This document shows, piece by piece, positions 26,404 to 61,460 of a stretch of 64,000 bases of DNA. Origin of the DNA: Evansella sp. LMS18 (lineage in GTDB: Bacteria; Bacillota; Bacilli; Bacillales; Salisediminibacteriaceae); the NCBI RefSeq assembly GCF_024362785.1, contig NZ_CP093301.1, forward strand, positions 3,968,001 through 4,032,000, in the 5' to 3' direction. A program made the translations under genes and the position numbers. The notes under the pieces were generated by a model. The model saw only the letters and a program-made list of their open reading frames with translations, was not told the origin of the DNA and searched no databases. Position 1 is the first letter of the stretch; each line of letters starts with the position of its first letter.

Positions 26404-27204
26404 ATCAGATATATTACATATTTAGCAGCTGTTTTAGTACTTTTGCTGGCTGGTTGCGGTAATGAGGCTGCAGAAGAAGTAATAATAGAAGACTTAAACA
26501 GGCCAGACGGGTTGGGAAAATTGGAAAATGATTATGAGAGTGGCGAATTCAGGAGCAGTTTATTTGAATACGAACGGTATTTTTCTCAAAATTCTTACGA
26601 GGGAGATATAGATTCTGACAGCCAGGAAGAATATAAGGAAGGCGACGGGAAGGTAAATGTACTGGTATCTGCGTCACATTCCACAGCCTATGTTAGAGAA
26701 GGAGAGGTCCTCCCTGCGGACGTGTATACTGGCGCAATAGCTCACCTTCTTCACGAGTACGCAAATGTTCATATAATTTTTTCCGCGAAGCAAGGGGAGG
26801 ATGGAAATTATGTATATGGAGGAAGCTATAAAGAAACAATCGGGAAGATAATTGGGAAGCATGAAATCGATTTAGTAATTGACCTCCATGGGGCAGCCCG
26901 GGACCGGTATTTTGACGTGGATATAGGAACGAATAATGGAATCACAGTAAGGGATGAATGGCTGGCTCTTCTTAAAGCTGCACTGGCCGATAATGGAATT
27001 AACTCCGTGTACGAAAACCACACCTTCGCTGCAACCCATGAAGGGACGGTAGCCAACTATACTTACGAGCACCTGAATTCAGAAGCAATACAGCTGGAAA
27101 TTAACCGGGAATTTCGCGACCCGACTGAGGACATGGATGCTTTTTATCAGCTTGTTAAATCGCTCCTGCTGTTTGTGGAAAATGTAGAAGTGGATGAAGA
27201 CTGA
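26404..27204 (+). CDS. Lipoprotein with N-formylglutamate amidohydrolase-like domain, non-canonical start likely
   Basis: From the first usual start (TTG at 26443) the protein lacks most of its signal peptide and begins MLAGCG. The same frame is open upstream and gives RYITYLAAVLVLLLAGCG, a complete lipoprotein signal, if translation begins at ATC 26404, nine bases after AGGAG. The mature part (266 residues in all) has an N-formylglutamate amidohydrolase/zinc-peptidase pattern: SASHSTAYVREGEVLPAD, DLVIDLHGAARDR, FDVDIGTNNG, and a late QLEINREFRDP with the metal-ligand Glu. It is probably a surface hydrolase of peptides or amino-acid derivatives. Confidence 0.7.
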   Translation: MRYITYLAAVLVLLLAGCGNEAAEEVIIEDLNRPDGLGKLENDYESGEFRSSLFEYERYFSQNSYEGDIDSDSQEEYKEGDGKVNVLVSASHSTAYVREGEVLPADVYTGAIAHLLHEYANVHIIFSAKQGEDGNYVYGGSYKETIGKIIGKHEIDLVIDLHGAARDRYFDVDIGTNNGITVRDEWLALLKAALADNGINSVYENHTFAATHEGTVANYTYEHLNSEAIQLEINREFRDPTEDMDAFYQLVKSLLLFVENVEVDED

Positions 27205-29434: not shown

Positions 29435-29448
29435 TTTAATGCATTAAA
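29435..29448. promoter_or_regulatory. Candidate activator-binding palindrome upstream of the pxp sigma-54 promoter
   Basis: TTTAATGCATTAAA is a perfect 14-bp palindrome about 62 bp upstream of the -24 box. A TGCAT-containing dyad also lies upstream of the second sigma-54 promoter (58800-58848). Confidence 0.5.
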
Positions 29449-29510
29449 TCAATACACTGGATTTAATGAAAGAAGTACCGACTAAGCTGAAAAAACTGCA
29501 TTTACAGTGT

Positions 29511-29526
29511 TGGCACAGAACTTGCA
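29511..29526 (+). promoter_or_regulatory. Sigma-54 (-24/-12) promoter of the pxp operon
   Basis: TGGCAC-AGAAC-TTGCA matches the sigma-54 consensus at every conserved base, with exact GG-to-GC spacing. It lies about 150 bases before pxpB. Confidence 0.85.
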
Positions 29527-29676: not shown

Positions 29677-30564
29677 ATGCAAGAGCTGAAGCCGAGGTAT
29701 GACCTTGGAGGAGACGAGTTCATTTTTGTTGAGCTTGCCCAGGAGATGAGCCTTGAAGCAAACTTTCGCGGAATCGCTATAACACAGAAGCTCAGGGAAA
29801 AAAATATAGAAGGTGTTGTGGATATCTGCCCTTCCAATGCTTCATATATGGTCCGAATTGACCCGGAAGTAATCCACCCACATAAAATGATTGAGGAATT
29901 AAAGGAAATTGATAAATCCATTGAAGACTTAAGCGATATTCAAATTGAGTCCCGGGCGGTAGATGTCCCTGTACTCTTTGAAGATCCTTGGACGCATGAA
30001 GCTGTAATGAGATTCAGAGACCGGCATCAGGACCCTGAATCAACTGACCTGGAATATGCTGCGAGAATAAATGGTTATGATTCAAAAGAAGATTTCATAA
30101 AAGCAATTACTGATTCGCCATTTATTGTTTCCATGGTAGGTTTTGTTCCTGGACTGCCTTTCTGTTTCCAGGTAGTGCCTCGTGAACAGCAGATTGAGGT
30201 GCCGAAGTATGTGCGTCCAAGAACATTCACACCGGAAAGAACCTTTGGTTTTGGGGGAGCATTCTCAGTTATTTATCCTGTACAGGGTGCCGGGGGATAC
30301 CAAATGTTTGGAATAGCACCTGCACCGGTTTTCAGCCAGGATACTCGTCTGCCGGATTTTAAAGATTCCATCGTATTTCCGAAACAGACCGACCTGTTCA
30401 GATACCGGGCAATTACGAGGGAAGAATACGATTCCATCCGGGAAGAAGTGGAAGCAGGAACTTTTAAATATAAAACTTGTGACATTTCCTTTAAGGCGGA
30501 TGAAGTCATTGAAGATCCTAAGAAATTCTCCGAAATGGTGATGAGGAGGTTGTACAATGATTAA
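29677..30564 (+). CDS. pxpB: 5-oxoprolinase subunit PxpB / KipI-like
   Basis: The 295-residue protein is a KipI-family (allophanate hydrolase subunit 1) protein. The characteristic GFVPGLPFC segment and the VPKYVRPRTFTPERTFGFGGAF region are present. It exceeds the usual ~240 residues by an N-terminal ~60 residues, but the core is intact. With PxpC and PxpA it forms ATP-dependent 5-oxoprolinase; the same fold makes half of the carboxyltransferase domain of urea carboxylase. ATG at 29677 after AGGGGTG; the stop overlaps pxpC by 8 bases. It is the first gene after the sigma-54 promoter. Confidence 0.9.
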   Translation: MQELKPRYDLGGDEFIFVELAQEMSLEANFRGIAITQKLREKNIEGVVDICPSNASYMVRIDPEVIHPHKMIEELKEIDKSIEDLSDIQIESRAVDVPVLFEDPWTHEAVMRFRDRHQDPESTDLEYAARINGYDSKEDFIKAITDSPFIVSMVGFVPGLPFCFQVVPREQQIEVPKYVRPRTFTPERTFGFGGAFSVIYPVQGAGGYQMFGIAPAPVFSQDTRLPDFKDSIVFPKQTDLFRYRAITREEYDSIREEVEAGTFKYKTCDISFKADEVIEDPKKFSEMVMRRLYND

Positions 30565-31537
30565 AGTTCTGGAGCCAGGCCTTGAAACAACTGTGCAGGA
30601 TAAAGGACGGGAAGGTTATTACGAAATAGGGATGCCTCCATCCGGGGCAATGGACCGTTATTCATACTTAGCGGGAAATTTGCTTGTTGGTAATGAAGAG
30701 AATGCCTCTTCATTGGAAATAACATATATGGGTCCGAAGCTTCAGTTTGAAGAAGATGCGGTAATCGCAGTTACAGGCGGAGAAATTCCACCGAAAATTA
30801 ACGAGGAACCTGTGCCGATGTGGACCACATTAACAATCAAAAAAGGAGATATACTTTCCTTTGACTTTGTTAAAAGCGGGGCGAGAGTCTACCTCGCAAT
30901 CGCCGGAGGAATTGATGTCCCGGTACTTCAGGGCTCCAGATCCACTTATACGCTTTGCCAGATAGGCGGATTTGAAGGAAGAGCACTGAAAGCGGGAGAT
31001 GAACTTGAGATAGGGGACATGCAGGAGACTTCTGTAAAAGAAGGAACAACTGTCCCGGAAGAATTCGTACCGGTTTATAAGAAATCACATGAAATAAGGG
31101 TAATTATTGGTCTTTGCAGCTACAGGCTTACAGAAGAGAGTAAACAAAGATTTTTAGATTTGGAATGGAAGGTAACCCCGGAAGCAAACAGAGTGGGATA
31201 CCGGTTCAAAGGAGAAAGGCTGGACTTCGTGGAAAGAGAGCAGCCGTTCGGTGCGGGAAGCAATCCTTCCAACGTGACTGATCTTGGTTATCCTATCGGA
31301 TCTATTCAGGTGCCAGATGGCATTGAACCGATAGCTCTCCTGAACGATGCGGTAACAGGCGGAGGCTATGCGACTATCGCGACGGTTATCAGCACAGACC
31401 TGAGCCATATGGCGCAAATTAAAACGAATGAAACTGTTAAATTCAAGGCGGTTGACCTTGATGAAGCCCTCGAAGCAAGGAAAGAAGTGCGCAGGAAGCT
31501 GGACAAAATCAGAGAACTGACAACAGGAAAAAAATAA
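30557..31537 (+). CDS. pxpC: 5-oxoprolinase subunit PxpC / KipA-like biotin-dependent carboxyltransferase homologue
   Basis: The 326-residue protein is a KipA family member: VLEPGLETTVQDKGREGYYEIGMPPSGAMDRYS at the start, NAxLEI-type ASSLEITYMGP, YLAIAGGIDVP, and a C-terminal REQPFGAGSNPSNVTDLGYPIGSIQVP segment. KipA-type proteins form the other half of the urea-carboxylase carboxyltransferase and are PxpC in 5-oxoprolinase. Translationally coupled to pxpB (8-base overlap). The BCCP gene follows after 30 bases. Confidence 0.9.
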   Translation: MIKVLEPGLETTVQDKGREGYYEIGMPPSGAMDRYSYLAGNLLVGNEENASSLEITYMGPKLQFEEDAVIAVTGGEIPPKINEEPVPMWTTLTIKKGDILSFDFVKSGARVYLAIAGGIDVPVLQGSRSTYTLCQIGGFEGRALKAGDELEIGDMQETSVKEGTTVPEEFVPVYKKSHEIRVIIGLCSYRLTEESKQRFLDLEWKVTPEANRVGYRFKGERLDFVEREQPFGAGSNPSNVTDLGYPIGSIQVPDGIEPIALLNDAVTGGGYATIATVISTDLSHMAQIKTNETVKFKAVDLDEALEARKEVRRKLDKIRELTTGKK

Positions 31538-31567
31538 TCTAATTTATATCAATCGGAGGAATTTATT

Positions 31568-31807
31568 ATGTCAGAAAAAGCAATCATCTCCCCATTACCA
31601 GGAGTATTTTACAGAAAGCCAAGCCCGGAGGAAGGAAATTATGTGGAAGAAGGCCAACAAGTAGAAGCGGGCGATGTTATCGGCCTCGTTGAAGTGATGA
31701 AAAACTTCCATGAAATAAAGGCTCAGGAAAGAGGCACGGTCGAATCTTTTCTCGTAGAAAATGAAACGGTAATTGATGCCGGCCAGGAAGTTGCAAAACT
31801 TAAGTAA
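31568..31807 (+). CDS. Biotin/lipoyl carrier protein (BCCP-like)
   Basis: The 79-residue protein is a minimal biotinyl domain without the Ala/Pro-rich N-terminal arm of AccB. SPLPGVFYRKPSPEEGNYVEEGQQVEAGDVIG precedes the biotin-accepting lysine in EVMKNF. Acetyl-CoA carboxylase carriers have MKM there; MKN departs from the common form. It should carry carboxybiotin between the biotin carboxylase encoded next and the PxpB/PxpC pair. GGAGG before ATG. Confidence 0.85.
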   Translation: MSEKAIISPLPGVFYRKPSPEEGNYVEEGQQVEAGDVIGLVEVMKNFHEIKAQERGTVESFLVENETVIDAGQEVAKLK

Positions 31808-31854
31808 CATTTGCATCAAGTGACAGACAGAAAAAACAAGTTAGGGTGAGATAT

Positions 31855-33213
31855 ATGGCGCTAATAAAAAAAATTTTAATAGCTAACAGAGGAGAAATTG
31901 CTCTTCGTATTATAAAAAGCTGCAAGAAACTTGGGATCGAGACAGTTGCAGTATATTCTGACGCAGACCAGGACCTTCCGTTTGTCCAGTCCGCTGACGA
32001 GGCAGTTAATATTGGAGAATCTCAAGCACAAAAGAGTTACCTCCATATGGAGAAGATTCTGCAGGTCGCTAAAATCAAAAATGCTGACGCAATTCATCCA
32101 GGATATGGCTTTTTATCCGAAAACCCGAATTTTCCTAAAAAATGTGAAAAAGAAGGTCTCATTTTTATCGGTCCGGATGAAAAAATCATTCAGGCGATGG
32201 GAAGTAAAATACATGCAAGAAATAAAATGAAAGAAGCAGGTGTTCCGGTACTTCCTGGCTGCGAAGGCATTGAAGACCTTGACGAAGCAGTAAAAATGGC
32301 TGAAGAGCTTGGTTATCCATTAATGCTGAAAGCCAGTGCAGGCGGTGGAGGTATGGGAATGAAGGTTCTTCAAAATAAGGAAGATCTGGAAAAAGCCTTT
32401 AATTCCACAGTACAGCAGGCTAAAAACTTCTTTGGTGATGGGTCTATTTATCTGGAGAAATTAATCGAAAACCCTCATCATATTGAAGTGCAGCTTCTTA
32501 GTGACCATCATGGCAACACAGTCCACTTATATGACCGGGAATGCTCGGTACAAAGAAGGAATCAGAAGGTAATTGAAGAAGGTCCTTCTCCGTTCCTTAG
32601 TGAAGCTAAACGCCAGGAAATATGTGAAACAGCTGTAAAAGGTGCCGTTTCTATCGGATATAAAAATGCAGGAACTATGGAATTTCTTGTAGACGAAAAT
32701 CAAAACTATTATTTTCTGGAAATGAATACCCGCCTTCAGGTAGAGCATCCTGTTACTGAGGAAGTTACAGGCCTTGATTTAGTAGAGTTGCAGATTAAAG
32801 TTGCAGCAGGGGAAAAATTACCTTTTACCCAGGAAGAAGTGGAAAGAAAAGGGCATGCCGTTGAATGCCGTCTCTATGCGGAAGATCCTAAAACCTTTTT
32901 CCCGTCTCCTGGCCCACTAAATACATTTAAGTTTCCTGAGGACAATACTCGGCTTGACTTCGGTTATGAGGAAGGTGACAAAGTCTCGCCATTCTATGAT
33001 CCTATGCTCGGCAAGATAATTACTTCCGGAAAAGACAGGGAAGAAGCGATCCGTAATATGGAGAAAGCTTTAGATGGTGTTACTGTGGAAGGGATAACAA
33101 CGAACCTTCCATTACTTCAGCAAGTCATGAAGGACGATGAATTCGTTTCAGGGATGTACACTACCAAACTACTCCAGAATATGAACGACAGGAGGGAGAA
33201 GGTTGAAAGTTGA
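31855..33213 (+). CDS. Biotin carboxylase subunit (AccC-like)
   Basis: The 452-residue protein has the complete biotin carboxylase fold: KILIANRGEIALRII at the N-terminus, HPGYGFLSEN, the glycine-rich ATP loop ASAGGGGMGMK, the EMNTRLQVEHPVTEEVTG catalytic loop and the RLYAEDP motif. It carboxylates biotin with ATP and bicarbonate. Because it lies within the pxp operon rather than beside accB/accA, it probably serves this pathway. ATG at 31855 after TTAGGGTGAG. Its stop overlaps pxpA by 11 bases. Confidence 0.9.
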   Translation: MALIKKILIANRGEIALRIIKSCKKLGIETVAVYSDADQDLPFVQSADEAVNIGESQAQKSYLHMEKILQVAKIKNADAIHPGYGFLSENPNFPKKCEKEGLIFIGPDEKIIQAMGSKIHARNKMKEAGVPVLPGCEGIEDLDEAVKMAEELGYPLMLKASAGGGGMGMKVLQNKEDLEKAFNSTVQQAKNFFGDGSIYLEKLIENPHHIEVQLLSDHHGNTVHLYDRECSVQRRNQKVIEEGPSPFLSEAKRQEICETAVKGAVSIGYKNAGTMEFLVDENQNYYFLEMNTRLQVEHPVTEEVTGLDLVELQIKVAAGEKLPFTQEEVERKGHAVECRLYAEDPKTFFPSPGPLNTFKFPEDNTRLDFGYEEGDKVSPFYDPMLGKIITSGKDREEAIRNMEKALDGVTVEGITTNLPLLQQVMKDDEFVSGMYTTKLLQNMNDRREKVES

Positions 33214-33970
33214 TCTGAATTGCGATATGGGTGAGAGCTTTGGAAATTATTCTTTAGGCTTTGATGAAGAGATGATGGAATTCATCTCTTCCGCCAACAT
33301 TGCATGCGGCTACCATGCGGGTGACCCGCATGTAATGAGAAAAACGGTAGAATGGGCAAAGGCAAGCGGAACCGGGGTCGGAGCCCATCCTGGTTTTCCT
33401 GACCTCATTGGGTTTGGGCGTCGTCATTTGAAAGTTACACCAGAAGAAGTGAAGGATTACATAACTTATCAGATGGGAGCCCTGAGAGAGTTTGCAAGAG
33501 CATCAGGACTGACAATCCAGCACTGTAAACCACACGGAGCACTCTATATGATGGCGATGGAGGATGAAAAGCTTGCACGCGCGTTTCTGGAAGCTGTTGC
33601 TGAAGCAGATGATAAAATGATTGTTTTTGCGCTGAATAATTCAGCTGTCGTTCAGCAAGGGGAAGTAATGGGTGTACCTGTAGCGAAGGAAGGCTACGCC
33701 GACAGGCAGCATACGAAAGACGGCTCTATCGTTCTAACAAGAAAAAGCGCTATGGTGGAAGATAACGAGGTGGCTGCAGAAAGAGTCGTAAGGATGGTCA
33801 AGGAAGGCAAGGTAACTACTCACCAGGATGAAGAGGCTTCTATTACTGTCGATACAGTATGCATCCACGGAGATACTCCAAACTCACTTGACCTTGTAAA
33901 AGCCATCACTGATGCTTTAAAAAGAGAAAACATTTCTATTACTTCAGTAAAAGATGTTCTGGGAGTGTAA
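33203..33970 (+). CDS. pxpA: 5-oxoprolinase subunit PxpA (LamB/YcsF family)
   Basis: The 255-residue protein is a full LamB/YcsF family member. DLNCDMGESFG at the N-terminus, ANIACGYHAGDPHVM, GAHPGFPD, VKPHGALY (here CKPHGALYMM) and CIHGDTPN are all present. PxpA hydrolyses the activated lactam, opening 5-oxoproline to glutamate with PxpB and PxpC. It starts with TTG at 33203 behind GGGAGAAGG and overlaps the biotin carboxylase gene, so all five genes form one operon. Confidence 0.95.
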   Translation: MKVDLNCDMGESFGNYSLGFDEEMMEFISSANIACGYHAGDPHVMRKTVEWAKASGTGVGAHPGFPDLIGFGRRHLKVTPEEVKDYITYQMGALREFARASGLTIQHCKPHGALYMMAMEDEKLARAFLEAVAEADDKMIVFALNNSAVVQQGEVMGVPVAKEGYADRQHTKDGSIVLTRKSAMVEDNEVAAERVVRMVKEGKVTTHQDEEASITVDTVCIHGDTPNSLDLVKAITDALKRENISITSVKDVLGV

Positions 33971-34143: not shown

Positions 34144-35559
34144 ATGGCTTCTAAAGAAGAACTGGAGCTTGTAAATGAAGAACTGGAAGAAATCTTTCAG
34201 GCTTCCTTCGCAGAAATATTCGTAACTGACCAGAATGGCGTCGTCCTCAGGGTTAATTCTGTTTGTGAAGAAAATTATGGTCTTTCGTCTGAGGAAATTA
34301 TAGGAAAGCATGTGAAGGATTTAGAAAAACAGGGAATTTTCTATCCTTCCGCTACCTTAAAGGTAATTGAAAAAGGAAAGCCAATAGAAATCCTCCAAGA
34401 AACAGGCTTTGGGCGGTTCCTGCACGTACAGGCAAGGCCTATAATGGATAAATCCGGGTACTTAAAACGCGTTATCAGCTATTCCCGGGATCTTACAGAG
34501 CTTAGCCAATTGAAAAGAAAAATTGAAGAAATGGAAGATAAAATAGAAATATTTAAGAAAGAACTTCAGGAACCACTTTATGTGGACGGCTTTATAACTA
34601 AAAGCCAAAGCTTGAAAAAAGTAATGGCCCTTATCCAGAAAATAGCAAAAGTGAACAGTACCGTACTCATCCTCGGGGAAACTGGAGTGGGTAAGAGCAA
34701 ATTTGCCAGGCTGATACATTCATATAGCGACAGGGAGACTAAAGTTTTTAACGAGATAAACTGTGCGGCACTTCCGCCGCAGCTAATTGAATCTGAGTTG
34801 TTTGGCTATGAGGGCGGTTCCTTTACCGGAGCTTTCCGGGAAGGAAAAAAGGGTTTAATCGAGCTTTCAAACCAAGGAACACTCTTCCTGGATGAGATTG
34901 GCGAAATCCCTTTGGAAGTACAGGGGAAATTGCTGCAGGTACTTCAGGAAAAAAAAGTCCGTCCTGTAGGCAGCAACAAAACATTGTCGGTTGATGTAAG
35001 AATCATTTCAGCCACTAATAAAAACCTTGAAGAAATGGTTGAAAAAGGGCAATTCAGAAAGGACTTATTTTACCGGCTGAATGTAATCCCTGTCTATGTA
35101 CCGCCATTAAGGGAAAGGAAAGAAGATATATTTCCACTTGTCTATCACTTTCTCGATTATTTTAACAGGCTATATAACAGTAAAGTGCGGTTTTCTCCAA
35201 AAGTTCTTGATGCTTTACTTGATTACCGGTGGGACGGGAATATAAGGGAATTGGAAAACATCGTGGAGCGCCTTGTCGTTACCGGGGATGATATCATCAC
35301 CTTAAGGGATCTACCGGCTGCCATCAGACAGGTAAATAAGTCGTTTAAAGGAAAGAGGTTGTCAGATTTAATGGCTGATTTTGAAAAATCAATTATTGAA
35401 GAAGCCTATGAAAGACACCATTCATCGTATAAAGTTGCGGAGGAATTGGGTATCAGCCAGTCCGCTGCTACGAGGAAAATAAAGAAATATATACATCAGC
35501 CGGAGCTTGCTGTTATTAGTAATAATGACTTTATGCTTAATACTGAACAGGATAGCTGA
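34144..35559 (+). CDS. PAS/AAA+ sigma-54-dependent transcription activator, paralogue 1
   Basis: The 471-residue protein has an N-terminal PAS domain (~15-120), a short coiled linker, an AAA+ domain with Walker A GETGVGKS near residue 183 and Walker B TLFLDEIGE, and a C-terminal Fis-type helix-turn-helix (YKVAEELGISQSAATRKIKKY). The sigma-54 contact loop reads GSFTGA, not GAFTGA. PAS probably senses a metabolite or redox signal. Placed between the sigma-54-promoted pxp operon and the molybdenum hydroxylase cluster, it is the obvious activator of the former. Confidence 0.9.
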   Translation: MASKEELELVNEELEEIFQASFAEIFVTDQNGVVLRVNSVCEENYGLSSEEIIGKHVKDLEKQGIFYPSATLKVIEKGKPIEILQETGFGRFLHVQARPIMDKSGYLKRVISYSRDLTELSQLKRKIEEMEDKIEIFKKELQEPLYVDGFITKSQSLKKVMALIQKIAKVNSTVLILGETGVGKSKFARLIHSYSDRETKVFNEINCAALPPQLIESELFGYEGGSFTGAFREGKKGLIELSNQGTLFLDEIGEIPLEVQGKLLQVLQEKKVRPVGSNKTLSVDVRIISATNKNLEEMVEKGQFRKDLFYRLNVIPVYVPPLRERKEDIFPLVYHFLDYFNRLYNSKVRFSPKVLDALLDYRWDGNIRELENIVERLVVTGDDIITLRDLPAAIRQVNKSFKGKRLSDLMADFEKSIIEEAYERHHSSYKVAEELGISQSAATRKIKKYIHQPELAVISNNDFMLNTEQDS

Positions 35560-35719: not shown

Positions 35720-36178
35720 ATGAAACTGGAATACTCTTATAAATTCAGCGAATCGAGGGAAGAGGTATGGAATTTCATGCAGAACGAGGATGTATTAAGA
35801 AATTCCCTCCCAGGATGTAAAAGCTTTGAAAAAGACCCGGAGAAAGACGTCTATATTTCTGAAATGGGAATCAGCATCGGGCCAATAAAAGGGATATTTT
35901 ACGGCGAGGTAAAACAGCTGAATCAGGAAAAGCCTGCATATTACAAGCTGAAGGTGCACGGAAAAGGCAAACCGGGGGAGATTGATGCTACCGCAGATAT
36001 GTTCCTTGAAGAAGAAGAGGACGGAACAAGGGTAGACTGTAAGGCGGACGCTCAGGTAACCGGAGTACTCGCTTCTGCAGGACAGCGAGTAATGAATGGT
36101 GCGGCAAAACTGATACTCGGCCAGTTCTTTAAAGCTGTAGACCAGGAAATGAAGAAAACTGCGGAAAAAAATGCATAA
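35720..36178 (+). CDS. CoxG-like SRPBCC protein
   Basis: The 152-residue protein fits the CoxG group of SRPBCC proteins: EVWNFMQNEDVLRNSLPGCKSFE, then GISIGPIKGIFYGEVKQL and the terminal LILGQFFKAVDQEMKK helix. CoxG recruits CO dehydrogenase to the membrane in Oligotropha; relatives accompany many other molybdenum hydroxylases. It is the first gene of the hydroxylase cluster, 33 bases before the small subunit. Confidence 0.85.
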   Translation: MKLEYSYKFSESREEVWNFMQNEDVLRNSLPGCKSFEKDPEKDVYISEMGISIGPIKGIFYGEVKQLNQEKPAYYKLKVHGKGKPGEIDATADMFLEEEEDGTRVDCKADAQVTGVLASAGQRVMNGAAKLILGQFFKAVDQEMKKTAEKNA

Positions 36179-36211
36179 AGCATTTTTTATAAATTGATGG
36201 AGGTGGAACAA

Positions 36212-36739
36212 TTGGGATCGAAAATGGAGATTTCAATGAAGGTTAACGGTACTGAAAAGAAGTCACACGTTGAGCCGCGGATGCTTCTCGTACACTATTT
36301 GCGGGATGAACTGGATCTTACCGGAACACATATCGGCTGTGATACGAGCCAGTGCGGGGCTTGTACTGTGTATGTTGACGGAAAGTCTGTTAAATCGTGC
36401 ACCACCCTTGCTGTGCAGGCTGACGGTTCTGAAGTAACTACTGTAGAAGGACTCGGTGATATGGAAAAACTTCATGCTATTCAGCGTGGCTTCTGGGAAG
36501 AGCATGGGCTCCAGTGCGGATATTGTACCCCGGGAGTAATGATGGCTATGGCTGCTTTACTCCGGGAAAATCATGATCCATCTGAAAGCGAGATAAGAGA
36601 AGGAATGAAAGGTGCTATCTGCCGTTGTACAGGATACCAGTTCATAGTAAAAGCAGTACAGCACGCAGCAAGGCGGCTGGCGGAAGAAAAAGAAGAGCAA
36701 AGGCTTGTCCAGTCTACTGGGGAAGGAGGGGTTAAATAA
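36212..36739 (+). CDS. Molybdenum hydroxylase small subunit, two [2Fe-2S] clusters (CoxS-like)
   Basis: The 175-residue protein has the two-cluster architecture of CoxS. The plant-ferredoxin-like site is CDTSQCGAC...C and the second site is CGYCTPG...CRCTGY. Electrons pass from the molybdenum centre through it to FAD. The likely start is TTG at 36212, five bases after GGAGGTGG; ATG 36224 is an alternative. Its TAA overlaps the ATG of the large subunit by one base. Confidence 0.95.
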
Positions 36740-39087
36740 TGGCGAAACTTCATGGAGCCAGAATAAAAAGGCAGGAAGATCCCCGTCTGATTACTGGTAA
36801 CGGTAATTTTACAGATGATATTAAACTTCCTGGAATGGTTCATGCCAGAGTGCTGAGAAGCCCATACGCCCACGCTAAAATACTCAGTATTGATGTTTCC
36901 GAGGCGCTTGAGCATCCGGGGGTGCTGGCTGTTTATACCGGGAAGGATGTTAACCCTGAAATGCAGCCTGTACCTACTTCCTGGGTAGTCCCTGGCTGTA
37001 ATATTAAGCCAAAGCCTCGAATGCCTCTCGCTGAAGAAAAAGTGCATTATGCCGGTGAAGGAGTTGCCTTCGTTGTAGCAGAGGACCGCTACATAGCAAA
37101 AGATGCCCTGGAAAAAATTAAGGTGGAATATGAAGAACTCCCTGCTGTTACCCATCAGGAGGAGGCTTTGAAGGAGGGGGCTCCGATAGTTCATGAGGAT
37201 GTGGAGGGGAACCTTGCTTTTGACTGGCAGCCTGCTGAACTGGATGACGAAGTCTTTGAGCAGGCGGAAGTAGTTGTCAAACAGCGTTTTTACGAGCAAC
37301 GGGTAGTCCCTAATCCGATGGAAACGAGGGGGGCTGTCGCACAGTACAACAGCGGCGGGGGAGAGATGACTATCTGGTGTACCAGCCAGAATCCTCATAT
37401 ACATCGAATGGTTTATTCTGAAGTCTTAGGTATTCCGGAATCAAAGCTTCGTATAGTAGCTCCTGACGTTGGGGGAGGATTTGGCGCAAAAATCGGTGTA
37501 TACACAGAAGAAGCATTGGCAGGATATGCTGCTAAAAATTTAAAGCGGCCAGTTAAATGGATTGAGGAAAGAAGCGAGCACTTCCTCGCTACCAACCATG
37601 CTCGTGATGAAGTTATCGAAGTAGAGCTGGCGGGTAACAAGGACGGAACTTTAACAGCTCTCCGTGTGGTTAACACTGCGAATATGGGAGCTTATTTATC
37701 TACGATGGGAGCAGGGGTGCCGACTATTGACTTTGGGTTAATGATAACTGGCGCTTACGACATACCTAAAGCTGCAGTAAGAACTTTCGGTGTTTATACA
37801 AATACAACACCTACAGACGCATACAGGGGAGCAGGCAAACCGGAAGCTACATTCCAGATTGAAAGAGCCATTGATCTGTTTGCTCATAAAATTGGAATGG
37901 ACGTGCTGGAGATACGAAAAAAGAACCTAGTGAAAAAAGAAGCCTTCCCATACACAAACGCCATGGGACTTAACTATGACAGTGGAAACTACCAGCTCTC
38001 ACTCGAAAAGGCTCTTGAAATGGCGAACTACGAAGAGCTTAGAGAAGAGCAAAAACGTCTGGCAGCAGAAGGAAGGTTAATGGGAATTGGATTTTCCACC
38101 TATGTGGAGCTTTGCGGTCTGGGACCTTCGAAAGTAGCCGGGGCAATTGGTTTCCAGGGTGGTCTGTGGGAAAACAGTACAGTCCGTGTCCATCCTTCAG
38201 GAAAAGTGGCAGTATATACAGGTGCTTCTCCACATGGGCAGGGGGTTAAAACAACCTTCGCGCAGGTAGTAGGAGAGAAATTCGGAATCCCAATTGAAGA
38301 TATTGAAGTATATTCCGGTGATACAGGAAGCATTGCCATGGGATGGGGAACGTACGGATCAAGGACGACCGCGGTAGGAGGCGGCGCATTAGCTATCGCG
38401 GCAGACAGAGTAGTGGATAAAGCGAAAAAAATCGCAGCTCATGAACTTGAAGCTTCCCCGGATGATATAGAACTGAAGGACGGCGTGTTCCAGGTGAAGG
38501 GGGTCCCTGGAAGACAGCGGACATTCCAGCAAATAGCGAAATCAGCGAATATGGCCTGGAATCTCCCGGAAGGAATGGAACCAGCTCTGGAAGCGCAGTC
38601 TTTCTTTGATCCGGAGAATTTTGTCTATCCATTCGGCACCCATATTTGTGTTGTGGAAGTAGATAAAGATACCGGAAAAGTAGAATTAACGAGATACATT
38701 GCTGTTGATGATGTTGGGCGTGTAATCAATCCTACCATTGTGGAAGGACAGGTCCATGGCGGACTGGCGCAGGGAATTGGACAGGCACTGTGGGAAGGTA
38801 CCGTCTACAGTGAAAATGGCCAGCTTTTATCCGGTACATTCATGGACTACACGATGCCGCAGGCAGATTTCTTCCCGGAATTTGAAACAGCCTGCACGGA
38901 AACCCCTTCTCCTGTTAACCCATTAGGTGCAAAAGGGGTTGGAGAAACTGGTACGACCGCATCTACTCCTGCTGTGGTGAATGCAGTAATGGATGCGTTA
39001 AAGGCATATGGGATCAAAGATTTAGAGATGCCGCTGACACCTGAAAAAGTTTGGTCGGCGATGCAGAACAGGAGGGAACTAGTATGA
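36739..39087 (+). CDS. Molybdenum hydroxylase large subunit (CoxL/XdhB-like, non-CODH active site)
   Basis: The 782-residue protein binds the molybdenum-cytosine dinucleotide cofactor. DVGGGFGAK near residue 247, the active-site loop AYRGAGKPE near residue 360, TGASPHGQG near 496 and the catalytic glutamate loop GAKGVGETG near 738 are visible. True CO dehydrogenase has AYRCSFR; here the loop is AYRGAGK, so this is a form II/xanthine-dehydrogenase-type enzyme acting on an unknown organic substrate. Coupled to both neighbours by start/stop overlap. Confidence 0.9.
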   Translation: MAKLHGARIKRQEDPRLITGNGNFTDDIKLPGMVHARVLRSPYAHAKILSIDVSEALEHPGVLAVYTGKDVNPEMQPVPTSWVVPGCNIKPKPRMPLAEEKVHYAGEGVAFVVAEDRYIAKDALEKIKVEYEELPAVTHQEEALKEGAPIVHEDVEGNLAFDWQPAELDDEVFEQAEVVVKQRFYEQRVVPNPMETRGAVAQYNSGGGEMTIWCTSQNPHIHRMVYSEVLGIPESKLRIVAPDVGGGFGAKIGVYTEEALAGYAAKNLKRPVKWIEERSEHFLATNHARDEVIEVELAGNKDGTLTALRVVNTANMGAYLSTMGAGVPTIDFGLMITGAYDIPKAAVRTFGVYTNTTPTDAYRGAGKPEATFQIERAIDLFAHKIGMDVLEIRKKNLVKKEAFPYTNAMGLNYDSGNYQLSLEKALEMANYEELREEQKRLAAEGRLMGIGFSTYVELCGLGPSKVAGAIGFQGGLWENSTVRVHPSGKVAVYTGASPHGQGVKTTFAQVVGEKFGIPIEDIEVYSGDTGSIAMGWGTYGSRTTAVGGGALAIAADRVVDKAKKIAAHELEASPDDIELKDGVFQVKGVPGRQRTFQQIAKSANMAWNLPEGMEPALEAQSFFDPENFVYPFGTHICVVEVDKDTGKVELTRYIAVDDVGRVINPTIVEGQVHGGLAQGIGQALWEGTVYSENGQLLSGTFMDYTMPQADFFPEFETACTETPSPVNPLGAKGVGETGTTASTPAVVNAVMDALKAYGIKDLEMPLTPEKVWSAMQNRRELV

Positions 39088-39944
39088 TACCAAGTGAATT
39101 TGCGTATAAAAGAGCAAACTCTGTGGAAGAAGCGCTTCAGCTGCTTAAGGAGAGTGATGGAGAAGGCAAGCTTCTCGCTGGTGGACACAGTCTCCTGCCT
39201 TTGATGAAGTTCCGCCTTACAAATCCGCAATCATTAATAGATATCAGCAGGATCGAGGAGCTAAAAGGAGTTAAGCTGGAAGGGGACCGTTTGGTCGTAG
39301 GAGCGATGACCACATACGACGAGCTTGTGAAAGACGAAACGGCACAGCAGCAAATTCCTGTTCTCGTAAAAGCAGTCAGGATCATAGGTGACCAGCAGGT
39401 TCGGAACCGTGGCACAATCGGCGGTAACCTTGCCCATGGGGACCCGGCTGCCGACCTTCCAGGTGCAGCTCTTGCACTTGACGCGGAGCTTGAGGTACAC
39501 GGGGACCTGGGAAAGGAAACGATCGCGGCGGAAGACTTTTTTATTGCCCCTCTTGTAACTATGCTTGGGGAAAACAGTATTGTAACTTCAGTTTCTTTTG
39601 CAGTGCCGGCGCCTCATTCAAGATCAGTTTATTTAAAATATGAACATCCTGCTTCCGGCTACGCCGTTATTGGCGTATGCGCTGTTGCCGCAATGGATGA
39701 TTCTGGCAAGGTAGAACATATACGAATCGGTATTAATGGGGTTAGTGATGTTCCATACCGGGCACGTGCGGTTGAAGAATCTTTAGCAGGTACAGAACCT
39801 ACAGAAGCTCTTGTGAAAGAGGCTTCAGAAAAGGCAGCTGATGATGGGGAAATCGGTTCGGATTTGTTCGCTTCAGAAAAATACCGCAGACATTTAGCGA
39901 AAGTTTACACAGAGCGTGCGCTGAAGGGAATTTTCTTCGGTTGA
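39084..39944 (+). CDS. Molybdenum hydroxylase medium subunit, FAD-binding (CoxM-like)
   Basis: The 286-residue protein carries both flavin-binding motifs of CoxM: AGGHSLLPLMKFRL near residue 32 and TIGGNLAHGDPAADLP near residue 111, plus a C-terminal CO-dehydrogenase flavoprotein domain. It hands electrons from the iron-sulfur clusters to FAD and on to a quinone or other acceptor. The ATG at 39084 follows AGGAGGGA and overlaps the large-subunit stop (ATGA). Confidence 0.95.
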   Translation: MIPSEFAYKRANSVEEALQLLKESDGEGKLLAGGHSLLPLMKFRLTNPQSLIDISRIEELKGVKLEGDRLVVGAMTTYDELVKDETAQQQIPVLVKAVRIIGDQQVRNRGTIGGNLAHGDPAADLPGAALALDAELEVHGDLGKETIAAEDFFIAPLVTMLGENSIVTSVSFAVPAPHSRSVYLKYEHPASGYAVIGVCAVAAMDDSGKVEHIRIGINGVSDVPYRARAVEESLAGTEPTEALVKEASEKAADDGEIGSDLFASEKYRRHLAKVYTERALKGIFFG

Positions 39945-40199: not shown

Positions 40200-41123
40200 A
40201 TGAGGAAAATTACGAACATACTGACTGAAGATACGATTGAACAGGCATTTAGAAAGCACCAGTATATAACCGACCGTTCCGTCGTGACTGCACTCCGGCT
40301 CGTCCAAGGCCTTAACAAGCCTCTTCTCATAGAAGGCCCGGCTGGCGTAGGGAAAACTCAGGTGGCTAAAGTACTTGCCGAAGTGCTGGAAACTCCGTTG
40401 ATACGGCTCCAATGTTATGAAGGACTTGATGTACATAATGCTCTGTATGAATGGAACTACCAGAAACAGCTGCTTCATATACAGCTAACGGAAAAAACAG
40501 GTGCTTCTGTTTCTGAAAGGGAGCAAGAGATTTTCGGGCAAGATTTTCTATTGAGGCGGCCTCTCCTTGAAGCATTATCTGCCGAAGAAGCGCCGCCTGT
40601 TTTATTAATTGATGAAATTGACAGGGCTGATGAGGAATTTGAGGCCTTTTTGATGGAACTTCTTGCAGAATTTCAAATAACCATACCAGAGATTGGAACA
40701 ATCGTACCAAAGCACAAGCCGTATGTCATTCTTACTTCAAACAGAACTAGGGAACTCAGTGACGCACTAAGACGCCGATGTTTGTATCAATGGTTTTCCT
40801 ACCCTGATTTTAAGAAAGAAACAGCTATTATACAGGCCCACTTACCAAAAATTAATGAAACAGCAGCTAATAAAATTGCCCTTGTCATTAAGGAAATCCG
40901 CTACATGCCTCTAAATAAAGTGCCCGGGGTAGCTGAAACCCTCGACTGGGCAGAAGCACTTATGCTTATGCATAAAAATGAAATAACTGCGGAGGCGATG
41001 AAAGAAACGCTCGGCTGTCTCGCGAAAGACAGAGACGACTGGGATGTTATAGAAAAGCATCTGCAGGATGGCGGGCTTCTAAGTGAGAAAAACCTGGAAA
41101 GTGCATGGTCTAAGGAAGCTTAA
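40200..41123 (+). CDS. MoxR-type AAA+ ATPase, CoxD-like maturation factor
   Basis: The 307-residue protein has Walker A GPAGVGKT near residue 44, Walker B LLIDEIDR, a sensor-1 segment VILTSNRTRELSDALRRRC and a C-terminal lid. CoxD proteins of this family help assemble the molybdenum active site together with a VWA partner, encoded just downstream. AAGGAG sits directly against ATG 40200 (no spacing), whereas the codon nine bases after it is ATT 40209; the true start may therefore be non-canonical. Confidence 0.85.
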   Translation: MRKITNILTEDTIEQAFRKHQYITDRSVVTALRLVQGLNKPLLIEGPAGVGKTQVAKVLAEVLETPLIRLQCYEGLDVHNALYEWNYQKQLLHIQLTEKTGASVSEREQEIFGQDFLLRRPLLEALSAEEAPPVLLIDEIDRADEEFEAFLMELLAEFQITIPEIGTIVPKHKPYVILTSNRTRELSDALRRRCLYQWFSYPDFKKETAIIQAHLPKINETAANKIALVIKEIRYMPLNKVPGVAETLDWAEALMLMHKNEITAEAMKETLGCLAKDRDDWDVIEKHLQDGGLLSEKNLESAWSKEA

Positions 41124-41125
41124 CT

Positions 41126-42424
41126 ATGGAAGCAGCAAAAATAATAAATTCAACTACATTGCCAGAACGAGTTCAGTTGTTTGCCAGGCACCTGAGGGAA
41201 TATGAAGTTGTTGCAGGGCCAGGAGAAATCATCCTCTTTCTTCAGGCGTTTGCCGATACAGGGCAAGGGGATGCAGAAAATTTTAAGACGATGATGAGGA
41301 TAATTTTCTGTTCACGAAGAGAGGATCTGGAGATTTTTAATATGCTGTATCCTCTTTATTTCAGCAAATCCGGACTGAAAAATTCTGTTGATTGTAAAAG
41401 AATCCATCTTTCATCCAAAAAAGTGGAGAAACAGAGTGATAATCCAAAAGATGAAAAAACTCAATTAGGAAAAAACAGGTCAAAAAAAGAGGCAAAGCAG
41501 ACTCTTGAGTCAATCCGTCTCGCAACAACTGTCCATAATACGGAGGAACATAACAACAGTAGTGATCGTAAATCTCAGGCATCTGCTTTAACGTTTAATC
41601 AGTCTGAAGCAATATCAGCAGACTCAGATAATAAAGAAATAAAAGTTTGGAAAGCGTCGAGATTAACCGGGGACAATACTCAAAATATCCATGTGTCCTT
41701 TGAAAGAGAAAATCTGCGAGCATATATATCAGCCGCTCGGATTTTCCACAAACACCTAAAGGTTAAACAAGGGAGACGATGGAAGACCCAGTATAAAGGT
41801 AAGCTGATAGATTTCCGTAAGCTTATGCGAAAGAATATGCAGACTGGCGGAAGAGCGGCGTTACTTCCCAAAAAAGCACGACCTGTTCGGAAAACCAAGT
41901 ACATTTTGCTCTGTGACAGCAGCCGTTCCATGGCTGATTTTTCGGTGAATTTCCTACAGTTTGCATATGGACTTACTCTTACAGCAGGAAAGGTAGAGGT
42001 TTTTCTGTTTTCCAACCAATTAAAAAGAGTTACAAATCAGTTAAAAAACACTAAGCATAAAGAAAATCCGGAATTTATTTTTTCCAGTGAAGAATGGGGG
42101 AGCGGTACCCGTATCGGTGATTCGTTTGTTAAATTAACTGAATATTACGATACAATGTTAACGAAAGATACGGTCATTCTGATAGGCAGTGATGGCCTTG
42201 ATACTGGAAAAACAGAAAGCCTTAGAAAGAGTATGGAAACATTTCAGAGAAATACAGCAGGGGTGGTCTGGTTTAATCCTCTTTTGGCAGTTCCTGGATA
42301 TGAGCCGGCGGCAAACGGAATGAAGGCAGCACTACCGTATATAGACGCGTTTCTTTTAGCAGATGATGCATTCTCTTTCCGGAAGGCCGCTTTCAAAATA
42401 AAAAATCAGGGGTGGCGGAAATGA
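41126..42424 (+). CDS. VWA-domain protein, CoxE-like
   Basis: The 432-residue protein begins with a CoxE-type helical region, continues through a ~110-residue hydrophilic linker (KKEAKQTLES... SDRKSQAS), and ends in a von Willebrand A domain with the metal-ion site DSSRSM near residue 271 and later GSGTRIGDS and GSDGLDTG. CoxD/CoxE pairs form an AAA+/VWA chelatase-like machine. Starts 2 bases after coxD; its TGA overlaps the next ATG. Confidence 0.85.
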   Translation: MEAAKIINSTTLPERVQLFARHLREYEVVAGPGEIILFLQAFADTGQGDAENFKTMMRIIFCSRREDLEIFNMLYPLYFSKSGLKNSVDCKRIHLSSKKVEKQSDNPKDEKTQLGKNRSKKEAKQTLESIRLATTVHNTEEHNNSSDRKSQASALTFNQSEAISADSDNKEIKVWKASRLTGDNTQNIHVSFERENLRAYISAARIFHKHLKVKQGRRWKTQYKGKLIDFRKLMRKNMQTGGRAALLPKKARPVRKTKYILLCDSSRSMADFSVNFLQFAYGLTLTAGKVEVFLFSNQLKRVTNQLKNTKHKENPEFIFSSEEWGSGTRIGDSFVKLTEYYDTMLTKDTVILIGSDGLDTGKTESLRKSMETFQRNTAGVVWFNPLLAVPGYEPAANGMKAALPYIDAFLLADDAFSFRKAAFKIKNQGWRK

Positions 42425-43554
42425 ACGACAATAAACGAATAACAGGGTTAATGGCAGCAGAAGCGAAAGAAGGGAGAAAAACCGCTGTCGCTACTGTAAT
42501 CCAGGTGAAAGGTTCTGCCTACCGAAGAGAAGGGGCGAAAATGCTCATAGGAGAACAGGGGATACTCGCTGGAATGATTTCCGGAGGCTGCCTTGAGCCG
42601 GATGTGGAGGAGACCGCAAAAGCCGTTATGGAGACGGGGAAGCCGGAACTGAAAACCTATCATATGGATGAAGAACTTGTCTGGGGCCTCGGTCTTGGCT
42701 GTCCAGGAACAGTAGACATATATATTGAGCCATTTTCCGCAGAGAATGATGAGGCGGCGTTTGGCAGCTGGTCTGATTCTGTCCAAAAGGAGATCCCGGC
42801 AGTTTTGTGTACTATTATAAAAGGAAGTCCTCAGGAAAACATAAGCGCTGGCGACCGTTTTTGCATAAAGCGTGAAGGTTTGTATGGAAAATGCCTGAAT
42901 ACTGAACTGGCAGAAAAAGCGACCGAACTTGCTTTAAAAAAGCTTGGCGAACAAAATCCTAAGTCCGGGACAACTGTACTATCAATTGGAGAAAACAAAA
43001 TTGAAGTATTTCTGGACGTATATGTTCCTCCTCCTGGCTTATTAATCTTCGGTGCTGGCCATGATGCGATCCCGCTGGCTAAAAGAAGCACGGAGTTTGG
43101 ATTTAAAACTACTTTGGTGGATCCAAGGCCTGGATATAATACAAAAGAGCTTTTTCCCGGATCGGATTGTATCCTCCTCGACCCGGCAAAAGTTGAAAAA
43201 GATGATCTCATAATTACTGAAAGGACGTATGTTGTAATTATGAACCATCATCTTGAGAGGGACGTCAAATCACTTGCACTTGCTCTTAATTCCTCCGCCC
43301 CGTATGTTGGTGTTCTGGGTCCCCGTTCAAGGCTGGAGAGGCTGCTCGACAGACTGGAGGAAGAAGGTTTGAATTTTACGGAAGACCAGCTGGATGAAAA
43401 ATTATTTGGCCCTGTTGGCCTTGATATTGGTGCTGATTCGGCAGATGAAATTGCGCTAAGTATTATGGCTGAAGTGCTTGCTGTAAAAAATGGCCATGCA
43501 GGTGGTTTTCTCAGGGAACGACAGGCGATTCACCAGCCTGTTAATATCAAATAG
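42421..43554 (+). CDS. XdhC/CoxI-family molybdenum hydroxylase maturation protein
   Basis: The 377-residue protein has an N-terminal XdhC/CoxF domain (VKGSAYRREGAKMLI, GGCLEPDVEE) and a C-terminal Rossmann domain (LLIFGAGHDAIPLAKRS, VDPRPGY, PRSRLERLL). XdhC binds the sulfurated molybdenum cofactor and delivers it to the large subunit. The ATG at 42421 follows AGGGGTGG and overlaps the VWA gene stop. Supports a sulfurated Mo enzyme upstream. Confidence 0.9.
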   Translation: MNDNKRITGLMAAEAKEGRKTAVATVIQVKGSAYRREGAKMLIGEQGILAGMISGGCLEPDVEETAKAVMETGKPELKTYHMDEELVWGLGLGCPGTVDIYIEPFSAENDEAAFGSWSDSVQKEIPAVLCTIIKGSPQENISAGDRFCIKREGLYGKCLNTELAEKATELALKKLGEQNPKSGTTVLSIGENKIEVFLDVYVPPPGLLIFGAGHDAIPLAKRSTEFGFKTTLVDPRPGYNTKELFPGSDCILLDPAKVEKDDLIITERTYVVIMNHHLERDVKSLALALNSSAPYVGVLGPRSRLERLLDRLEEEGLNFTEDQLDEKLFGPVGLDIGADSADEIALSIMAEVLAVKNGHAGGFLRERQAIHQPVNIK

Positions 43555-43557
43555 AAC

Positions 43558-44193
43558 ATGGCTGGGGAAAAATACCCGGTCGCTGCAGTAATTCTCGGAG
43601 CAGGAATGTCCAGACGAATGGGAACGGCTAAACAGCTGCTTCAGCTTGGGAAGCGCAGTTTACTGGAGGTTACGATAACAAACGTTCTGCACAGTGGTTT
43701 TTCCAGAGCTATCGGGGTAATTGGACATGAAGCAGAACAAATCCAGGCAGAGATACAAATATCTGATCAAAGATTCCAGTGGGCAATAAACAAAGAATAT
43801 AAAAAAGGCCAGAGTACTTCTCTTTTTACAGGCCTTCAAGAAGCACTTAACGAAGGATATTCCTCAGTTATGATTTTTCTTGGGGATATGCCTTTTATAA
43901 AACGGGAAACCATGGAATCTGTGCTGCGCTCAGGGATGGAGATAGGTTCACAGACCGAAAAACCGTTTATGCTGCAACCGGAATATAATCAAATTCCAGG
44001 TCATCCAGTCTACCTTGGAAATGTACATGAAGGTCTCCTTCAATTTTTAGCTGGAGACGAAGGGGCTAAAGGTCTTAAGGAATCTCTGCATATATATAAA
44101 CGTCTCCGAGTCACAGATCCAGGATGTGTTTTTGATATTGATACTCCTGAGGTGTATGAAAAAGCGAAGGGGATTTTGCGAGAGAAAAATTAA
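43558..44193 (+). CDS. MocA/PucB-like molybdenum cofactor cytidylyltransferase
   Basis: The 211-residue protein is a MobA-like nucleotidyltransferase: AAVILGAGMSRRMGTAKQLLQLG binds the nucleotide, then IFLGDMPFI holds the metal-binding Asp, and QIPGHPVYLG follows. In hydroxylase clusters this group attaches CMP to molybdopterin. It begins 3 bases after the XdhC stop, completing the maturation operon. Confidence 0.85.
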   Translation: MAGEKYPVAAVILGAGMSRRMGTAKQLLQLGKRSLLEVTITNVLHSGFSRAIGVIGHEAEQIQAEIQISDQRFQWAINKEYKKGQSTSLFTGLQEALNEGYSSVMIFLGDMPFIKRETMESVLRSGMEIGSQTEKPFMLQPEYNQIPGHPVYLGNVHEGLLQFLAGDEGAKGLKESLHIYKRLRVTDPGCVFDIDTPEVYEKAKGILREKN

Positions 44194-58800: not shown

Positions 58801-58848
58801 AATGCAATAATGAATTAAAATTTATTAGATTGATGCATTTTTGCATTT
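58800..58848. promoter_or_regulatory. Candidate activator-binding dyad
   Basis: AAATGCAA (58800-58807) and TTGCATTT (58841-58848) are exact inverse copies, with a further ATGCATT at 58833. They lie 40-90 bp upstream of the -24 box. Confidence 0.5.
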
Positions 58849-58888
58849 AAAAAGACATAATTTAGTCACATTTAACCCTCTTTAATGT

Positions 58889-58904
58889 TGGCATCATTCT
58901 TGCA
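58889..58904 (+). promoter_or_regulatory. Sigma-54 (-24/-12) promoter of the ureohydrolase operon
   Basis: TGGCAT-CATTC-TTGCA has exact GG-to-GC spacing; one base departs from the consensus (T for C in the -24 box). Confidence 0.8.
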
Positions 58905-58954
58905 CTAATATAAAGTGCACAGAATAATTTTCAACCTTAGGGAGGGCATTTTTA

Positions 58955-59944: not shown

Positions 59945-59957
59945 AGGAGGTTTATCA

Positions 59958-61409: not shown

Positions 61410-61460
61410 ATATTTTACTCCTAAGAATAAGCAAAAAACTAAAAAATAGGAGGAACAATT

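Follow-up and report, generated by a model that had tools for sequence, protein, structure and literature searches.

What an operon does that joins relatives of the 5-oxoprolinase subunits PxpA, PxpB and PxpC to the biotin-handling parts of a carboxylase is the question raised by a locus of Evansella sp. LMS18. It lies in a 64,000-nucleotide stretch of a 4.9-Mb genome assembled as a single contig (NZ_CP093301.1, positions 3,968,001 to 4,032,000 of the forward strand), which we call the window and to which all coordinates given without a locus number refer. On balance, our results favor the reading that a split lactam carboxylase, dependent on biotin, is encoded here together with a partner hydrolase, acting on 2-pyrrolidinone to give gamma-aminobutyric acid (GABA) via an N-carboxy intermediate. 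In silico, the mechanism class, biotin-dependent carboxylation of the ring, has good support, and 2-pyrrolidinone would be the likely substrate.

The original prediction described five genes in one tightly overlapping operon. The genes are real and all lie on the plus strand, between 29677 and 33970. They encode a PxpB-like carboxyltransferase (CT) subunit (29677-30564; Pfam CT_C_D, E 8.5e-36), in which the general-base lysine of urea carboxylases is residue 177; a PxpC-like CT subunit (30557-31537; CT_A_B, 2.5e-89) with an AGxxPSN loop of the urea-carboxylase type and D242; a biotin carboxyl carrier protein (BCCP) of 79 aa (31568-31807; NCBIfam NF005457, 115 bits against a cut-off of 87) with its biotinyl lysine in EVMKNF; an ATP-grasp biotin carboxylase (BC; 31846-33213; NF006367, 629 against a cut-off of 597) that starts at GTG 31846 or ATG 31858; and a predicted ring-opening hydrolase of the PxpA/LamB-YcsF family (33203-33970; PF03746, 1e-95) with a TTG start. 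Overlaps are found between PxpB and PxpC (8 nt) and between BC and PxpA (11 nt), but the other two junctions are gaps, of 30 nt between PxpC and BCCP and of 38-50 nt between BCCP and BC. At Rfam gathering thresholds no match was found in the window. Evansella clarkii (L177) encodes counterparts of all five in identical order and with 96-98% protein identity, and since the gene set was found again in 80 loci from other genomes, the operon is not a chance grouping.

The operon is not a canonical 5-oxoprolinase, and the name 5-oxoprolinase operon, under which it had been introduced, is not earned. Both CT subunits fall below the equivalog cut-offs of their namesakes (PxpB 67.4 bits against 145.55 on TIGR00370; PxpC 234 bits against 500 on NF045499), and the PxpB scores 127 bits on the urea carboxylase model versus 67 on the PxpB model. 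The PxpA does exceed the cut-off of the NCBI PxpA subfamily model NF003814 (338 versus 226). Elsewhere the same genome has a canonical operon, which comprises PxpC, PxpA and PxpB together with an NRAMP-like transporter and lacks biotin genes within the 13 kb covered around it. We searched 398 genomes class-wide with the window PxpB, and the matches listed fall into separate groups, namely type 1 (61-74% identity, in 25 other genomes), type 2 (approximately 34-45%), chains of approximately 1200 aa and weak-scoring canonical PxpB; fragments of type 2 under 200-250 aa were dropped. All three of the long chains that were checked exceed the urea-carboxylase cut-off and have an allophanate hydrolase adjoining. 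A phylogeny built from concatenated PxpB and PxpC sequences (84 pairs, 614 columns, with 33 of the 81 type-1 loci described below) separates type 1, type 2, types 1 and 2 together, canonical proteins and fused urea carboxylases, each with a support of 100, and places the window pair outside the canonical clade. The hydrolase differs too: position 116 of PxpA is M in 70 of the 77 type-1 proteins compared (of 79 available) and N in 21 of 21 canonical ones, which would be compatible with an altered substrate pocket. Position 179 (R in canonical PxpA, T in type 1) was dropped as a substrate marker, since in type 1 the following column carries a conserved R.

Most comparisons below cover 81 type-1 loci, namely the window and 80 kept of 83 confirmed relatives, set against 21 canonical control loci. 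Many of the 81 are closely related, some genomes occur both in this set and in an earlier one of 25 type-1 loci, and L155/L178 and L158/L174 represent one isolate per pair. Neighbor counts are lower bounds, as 21 of the 81 stretches are shorter than 15 kb whereas the controls span 18 kb (L005 13 kb). Neighbor labels come from BLAST at E 1e-8 against our own reference proteins, and few of the neighbors were checked by profiles.

The evidence for the chemistry begins with one CT residue. For yeast (K. lactis) urea amidolyase, published work names Lys1605 as the most likely candidate for an essential general base in the CT step and reports severe inhibition by the K1605A substitution (PMC5770610); K177 of the window PxpB aligns with Lys1605. 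In a first set, whose type-1 proteins came from a whole-protein search, this column is K in 26/26 type-1 proteins, 25/25 type-2 proteins and 3/3 fused urea carboxylases, whereas all 34 canonical PxpB of the same alignment have R. The larger set agrees, with R in all 21 canonical PxpB and K in 81 of 81 type-1 proteins, the latter count being partly built in because one of the two peptide patterns through which the 80 loci were found (PKYVRPRT) includes the tested lysine; the 26 proteins obtained without that pattern are the cleaner test. The two canonical sets share L005 and hold 54 distinct PxpB, all with R. The same two patterns retrieved no relative from viral contigs. Moreover, type-1 PxpC has the AGxxPSN loop and D242 in common with urea carboxylases, whereas in canonical PxpC the loop is absent and S or T stands in place of the D.

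Structure prediction points in the same direction. An AlphaFold model of the window PxpB, built from 28 sequences (mean predicted local distance difference test score, pLDDT, 89), finds its best match, over its full length, in K. lactis urea carboxylase (3va7, residues 1426-1712; Z 25.5, root-mean-square deviation (rmsd) 3.1, 281 residues), as against Z 17.4 and rmsd 2.9 over 199 residues for E. coli PxpB (5dud_B). Both CT halves, the BCCP and the BC of a urea carboxylase are all encoded in the operon; on TIGR02712 these separate chains score 127, 264, 25 and 573 and do not reach the single-chain cut-off of 1303.85, which the fused controls pass with 1676-1754. A scan of 20 proteins encoded in the window at and near the operon detected PxpA but no allophanate hydrolase, which all three fused controls have.

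The carrier is the steadiest companion of the CT pair. Among the 81 loci PxpB and PxpC are found in 81, PxpA in 79, the carrier in 78 and BC in 67. L164, L165 and L173, which alone lack it, stop inside PxpA or PxpC at contig ends, so that the carrier is kept in every type-1 locus not cut short; all 78 carriers have the biotinyl lysine. BC was counted anywhere in the stretch, and in L127 and L134 it lies far from the operon. Of the 14 loci in which it is missing, L157, L160 and L178 are truncated at the end that carries BC in their relatives, ten (such as L109 and L113) run from BCCP directly into PxpA, and L166 shows neither arrangement. The earlier set of 25 gave a similar picture, with the carrier in 25/25, BC outside the operon in nine and PxpA missing in three. 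Six of these nine BC-less genomes were queried, and since each has two or more further genes for a stand-alone BC, we suggest that BC can come in trans from other carboxylases. Three genomes whose type-1 locus lacks PxpA likewise have a copy elsewhere, 55-56% identical to that of the window. The biotin transporter family BioY occurs within approximately 2 kb of PxpB in 11/81 loci (ten contigs of Rubrobacter or related actinobacteria and one Oceanobacillus; two were checked by Pfam) versus 0/21 canonical controls. Biotin genes lie near one of the 21 controls (L207) and near none of 30 canonical loci viewed with only 1.5 kb on each side. In L070 (7701-12137) PxpC, BC and PxpA are each split in two reading frames, the result of decay or of sequencing errors.

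The substrate is suggested by the neighborhood. Of the 81 loci, 14 have a relative of the GABA aminotransferase GabT (at least 45% identity) within approximately 10 kb, whereas two copies per genome would lead one to expect about 0.7; none of the 21 controls has one (Fisher one-sided p 0.03, which is only a guide since the loci are related). In the earlier set GabT and the succinate-semialdehyde dehydrogenase (SSADH) GabD flank five loci (L070, L074, L079, L091, L092); in L070, L079 and L091 both proteins score above their profile cut-offs, GabT as GABA transaminase and GabD as SSADH. A Halobacillus locus (L118) has GabT-PxpB-PxpC-BCCP-BC-PxpA-GabD as a single run, and a Sporosarcina locus (L135) has GabR, which is over its cut-off, GabT, GabD, the five genes and a molybdenum hydroxylase in one row. 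The window genome encodes GabT (73%) and GabD (71%, with one stop inside the match) elsewhere. If GABA is the product, the substrate would therefore be a gamma-lactam, that is 2-pyrrolidinone. The original prediction had considered a lactam or a ureide and named 5-oxoproline, pyrrolidinone and hydantoin as candidates; among these the GABA-gene neighborhoods favor 2-pyrrolidinone over 5-oxoproline, ureides and hydantoin. Fungal work would agree with 2-pyrrolidinone by analogy: the first relationship drawn for YcsF was to LamB of A. nidulans, a protein of 2-pyrrolidinone utilization (PMC3412718), and AmdR is reported to control lamA and lamB together with the omega-amino acid genes gatA and gabA (PMC8016842).

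Downstream of the operon lies a second gene set that would fit the same pathway. Eight genes of a molybdenum hydroxylase set follow on the plus strand: a CoxG-like gene (35720-36178), the 2Fe-2S subunit (36194-36739), the molybdenum-binding large subunit with an AYRGAGK motif (36739-39087), the FAD subunit (39051-39944), a MoxR-type AAA ATPase (40200-41123) and a CoxE-like VWA protein (41126-42424), both for maturation, an XdhC-type maturation factor (42412-43554) and a MocA-type molybdenum cofactor cytidylyltransferase (43558-44193). Subunits of such an enzyme lie beside 52/81 type-1 loci versus 0/21 controls, in Bacilli, Rubrobacter and Janibacter and in differing gene orders. The family name suggests a CO dehydrogenase, an identity ruled out for the window genes by AYRGAGK and the absence of a CSFR loop, which we take to be the active-site motif of the Cu-Mo CO dehydrogenase. 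The same holds for the relatives, since [AS]YRGAG[KR] stands in place of CSFR in all 48 readable large subunits (four more of the 52 are fragments). In the aldehyde oxidase family the oxidation of cyclic imines to lactams is known, as in cotinine formation; the proposed role of the large subunit in lactam formation, from 1-pyrroline to 2-pyrrolidinone, therefore follows by inference. Genes for molybdate are found near some of the Bacilli operons, with ModA over its cut-off in L129 (4806-5615) and, by eye, genes resembling molybdate uptake and molybdenum cofactor synthesis in L152 (13800-18520); they would be in line with a working molybdenum hydroxylase.

Put together, these elements suggest the following mechanism. 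As its family suggests, BC would carboxylate the biotin of the small BCCP from bicarbonate at the expense of ATP, and the carboxybiotin would swing to a PxpB/PxpC heteromer acting as a carboxyltransferase of the urea-carboxylase type. There, as residue conservation and the structural match suggest, Lys177 may serve as general base and the ring nitrogen of the lactam would be carboxylated. PxpA/LamB would then hydrolyze the activated, imide-like C-N bond, and the resulting carbamate would lose CO2, with bicarbonate recycled and a net cost of one ATP. The product GABA would enter the succinate-semialdehyde route. Where it is a neighbor, the molybdenum hydroxylase probably supplies the lactam by oxidizing the cyclic imine 1-pyrroline. 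The longer route, from 1-pyrroline (e.g. from polyamines) through 2-pyrrolidinone and on to GABA by way of the split biotin enzyme and a LamB-type hydrolase, we put forward more tentatively, at a little less than even chances. The original prediction that BC and BCCP feed a carboxyl group to PxpB/PxpC before PxpA opens the ring is thus supported in silico by the CT lysine, the carrier, the structural match and BioY; its 5-oxoprolinase framing is not.

Transcription of the operon would be sigma-54 dependent, with its activator encoded downstream. A -24/-12 promoter site of the sigma-54 type (TGGCAC-N5-TTGC, 29511-29525, plus strand) is the sole exact match in the window, where 0.10 is expected, and a perfect inverted repeat with arms of 9 nt, CATTAAATC-N9-GATTTAATG (29442-29468), is by its position upstream of this site a possible activator (enhancer) site. 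A relaxed -24/-12 site within 400 nt upstream of PxpB is found in 31/79 type-1 loci versus 1.45% of 2000 random stretches. The likely activator of the operon is a regulator of PAS, sigma-54 activator and Fis architecture (34144-35559, plus strand), located between the operon and the molybdenum hydroxylase genes, and sigma-54 activators occur in 32/81 type-1 loci versus 2/21 canonical controls.

A number of observations weigh against the proposed function and should temper its interpretation. GabT or GabD stands beside the operon in only a minority of loci, and the window itself contains neither, only a distant aldehyde dehydrogenase 26 kb away. The GabD of a Rubrobacter locus (L156) scores just below the SSADH cut-off (644.0 versus 646.35). 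GabT and the molybdenum hydroxylase occur together in only 6/81 loci and, with GabD, are all out of view in 20/81, because of which the different contexts could mark different substrates. PxpA1 is missing from the locus in some Aneurinibacillus, although three such genomes have the 55-56% identical copy elsewhere. Type-2 PxpB/PxpC have the same CT lysine, and carrier genes are often not beside them. Conversely, canonical R-type pxp operons adjoin accB/accC in L037 (5851-10296), L105 and L207 (5856-7743), a biotin-associated arrangement of a separate kind; L037, chosen for its neighboring carrier, and L105 belong to the canonical alignment set, and because relatives of the L105 kind were left out, the share of R-type operons with accBC may exceed 1/21. 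In addition, PDB entry 9yx5 (2025), by its title, has the M. smegmatis pair MSMEG_0435-0436, of PxpB/PxpC type, bound to a long-chain acyl-CoA carboxylase (chains V and W), and in our alignment this pair has R at the CT column, whereas the window has K. From these R-type pairs it follows that biotin coupling may not need the CT lysine.

Several other explanations have to be weighed against this one. The simplest would be a plain ATP-dependent 5-oxoprolinase (PxpABC) whose operon incidentally includes the carrier and carboxylase of a second acetyl-CoA carboxylase. Both the PxpA subfamily score and the canonical operons with adjoining accB/accC lend it some credit, but we regard it as improbable: the CT subunits are under the PxpB/PxpC cut-offs and form their own, fully supported clade, K replaces R at the CT column, the genome has a canonical pxp operon elsewhere, the carrier is retained in every uncut locus, and the surrounding GABA genes and molybdenum hydroxylase are found at 0/21 canonical operons. 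It is less improbable, although still unlikely, that the biotin mechanism is as proposed and the lactam another one, with delta-valerolactam or a broad range of lactams giving 5-aminovalerate or several omega-amino acids for enzymes like GabT and GabD. These families overlap with 5-aminovalerate enzymes, some loci (L131 among them) have other class-III aminotransferases and aldehyde dehydrogenases, and the range of the molybdenum hydroxylase could extend to various cyclic imines or N-heterocycles. On the other hand, the neighboring GabT scanned exceed the GABA equivalog cut-offs (3/3), as the L135 regulator does that of GabR.

A split carboxylase for urea, guanidine or another ureide would account for what the operon has in common with fused urea carboxylases, that is the CT lysine, the AGxxPSN loop and D242 of PxpC, and the top structural match. 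It leaves unexplained why PxpA/LamB takes the place of the allophanate hydrolase found at 3/3 fused loci, and with the fused enzymes on a separate long branch and the GABA context we give it very little probability. Least credible to us is that no lactam enzyme is encoded at all, and that BCCP and BC serve fatty-acid synthesis or the fixation of CO-derived carbon while PxpB and PxpC are regulators like KipI and KipA. Such a reading draws on the family names KipI/KipA and 'CO dehydrogenase', and on the statement that B. subtilis KipI inhibits kinase A (PMC3412718). It is contradicted by the lack of an AccA/AccD-type carboxyltransferase in the operon, by the molybdenum subunit motif, which is never CSFR, and by the conserved catalytic lysine.

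Further observations concern the surroundings of these loci. Judged by names, a link to polyamines was not borne out: among the transporter loci scanned, PotA exceeds its subfamily cut-off in L079 alone, where the accompanying PotB/PotC-like permeases are below theirs. The Pot-like genes of L135 adjoin a substrate-binding protein of the Opp/Nik kind, those of L148 a relative of adenine deaminase, and in L129 the label meant molybdate genes, as it may in L136, L138, L180 and L152, which are alike by label and place only. At 57379-63616 of the window a second sigma-54 regulator precedes genes for an agmatinase-family protein that passes TIGR01230, for an aldehyde dehydrogenase, for an NCS1 permease and for an amidase of the nitrilase family; this is probably a catabolic cluster for agmatine or a guanidino acid and possibly lies upstream of the same GABA route. 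A weak match to N-formylglutamate amidohydrolase, under the Pfam cut-off, is found at 26443-27204. In L036 (6093-7970), L094, L096 and L098-L101, type-2 pairs have HyuA/HyuB and a sigma-54 regulator as neighbors, and neither carrier nor BC genes are visible. These are also absent from view in L093 (6304-11083), where two tandem PxpB/PxpC pairs precede PxpA1 and a GABA transaminase lies further along.

Biotin enzymes are known to N-carboxylate urea and guanidine, and one of the known systems closest to the proposed enzyme is the urea amidolyase of K. lactis (KlUA; PDB 3va7, 5i8i). Both have BC, BCCP and a CT made of the same two halves with the CT lysine, and in both, proposed for the window, N-carboxylation would be the activation ahead of hydrolysis; the window differs in its four split chains, its LamB/YcsF partner hydrolase instead of allophanate hydrolase, and its separate clade. 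With PxpABC it has in common the PxpA family, the PxpB/PxpC folds and, as proposed here from the genes, ATP-dependent lactam opening. It differs from that system in that K replaces R at the CT base, both CT subunits have extra urea-carboxylase segments, a dedicated biotin carrier is present, the neighbors are others and M takes the place of N116 in PxpA; for the canonical PxpBC, phosphorylation of 5-oxoproline is assumed (PMC13274462). The LamA/LamB system of A. nidulans, whose LamB is related to the YcsF of the PxpA family, serves the use of 2-pyrrolidinone but is fungal. The lactam and hydantoin hydrolases CapAB, HyuAB and OplAB also open lactams at the expense of ATP, but are unrelated proteins without biotin; HyuAB accompany type-2 PxpB/PxpC in several loci, and for caprolactamase a carboxyphosphate intermediate is among the proposals (PMC8453981).

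Judged by titles and abstract openings, our searches of mostly open-access literature listed no paper that describes a biotin-dependent lactam enzyme, and a 2011 survey of biotin carboxylases mentions the two split CT genes as often adjacent and unstudied (PMC3199775). If the proposal is true, the operon would encode the first biotin-dependent lactam carboxylase, and the breaking of lactams by N-carboxylation would be a new way of ring opening and would extend biotin enzymes to a new class of substrate. Hydrolases of the LamB/YcsF type would be acceptors of N-carboxylated rings, and GABA would be formed without aminobutyraldehyde dehydrogenase. Moreover, proteins automatically named '5-oxoprolinase subunit' or 'allophanate hydrolase' would act otherwise, with K or R at a single column as a simple marker. 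Such a pathway could explain how some Bacilli and Actinobacteria break down 2-pyrrolidinone, also called butyrolactam, which is the monomer of nylon-4.

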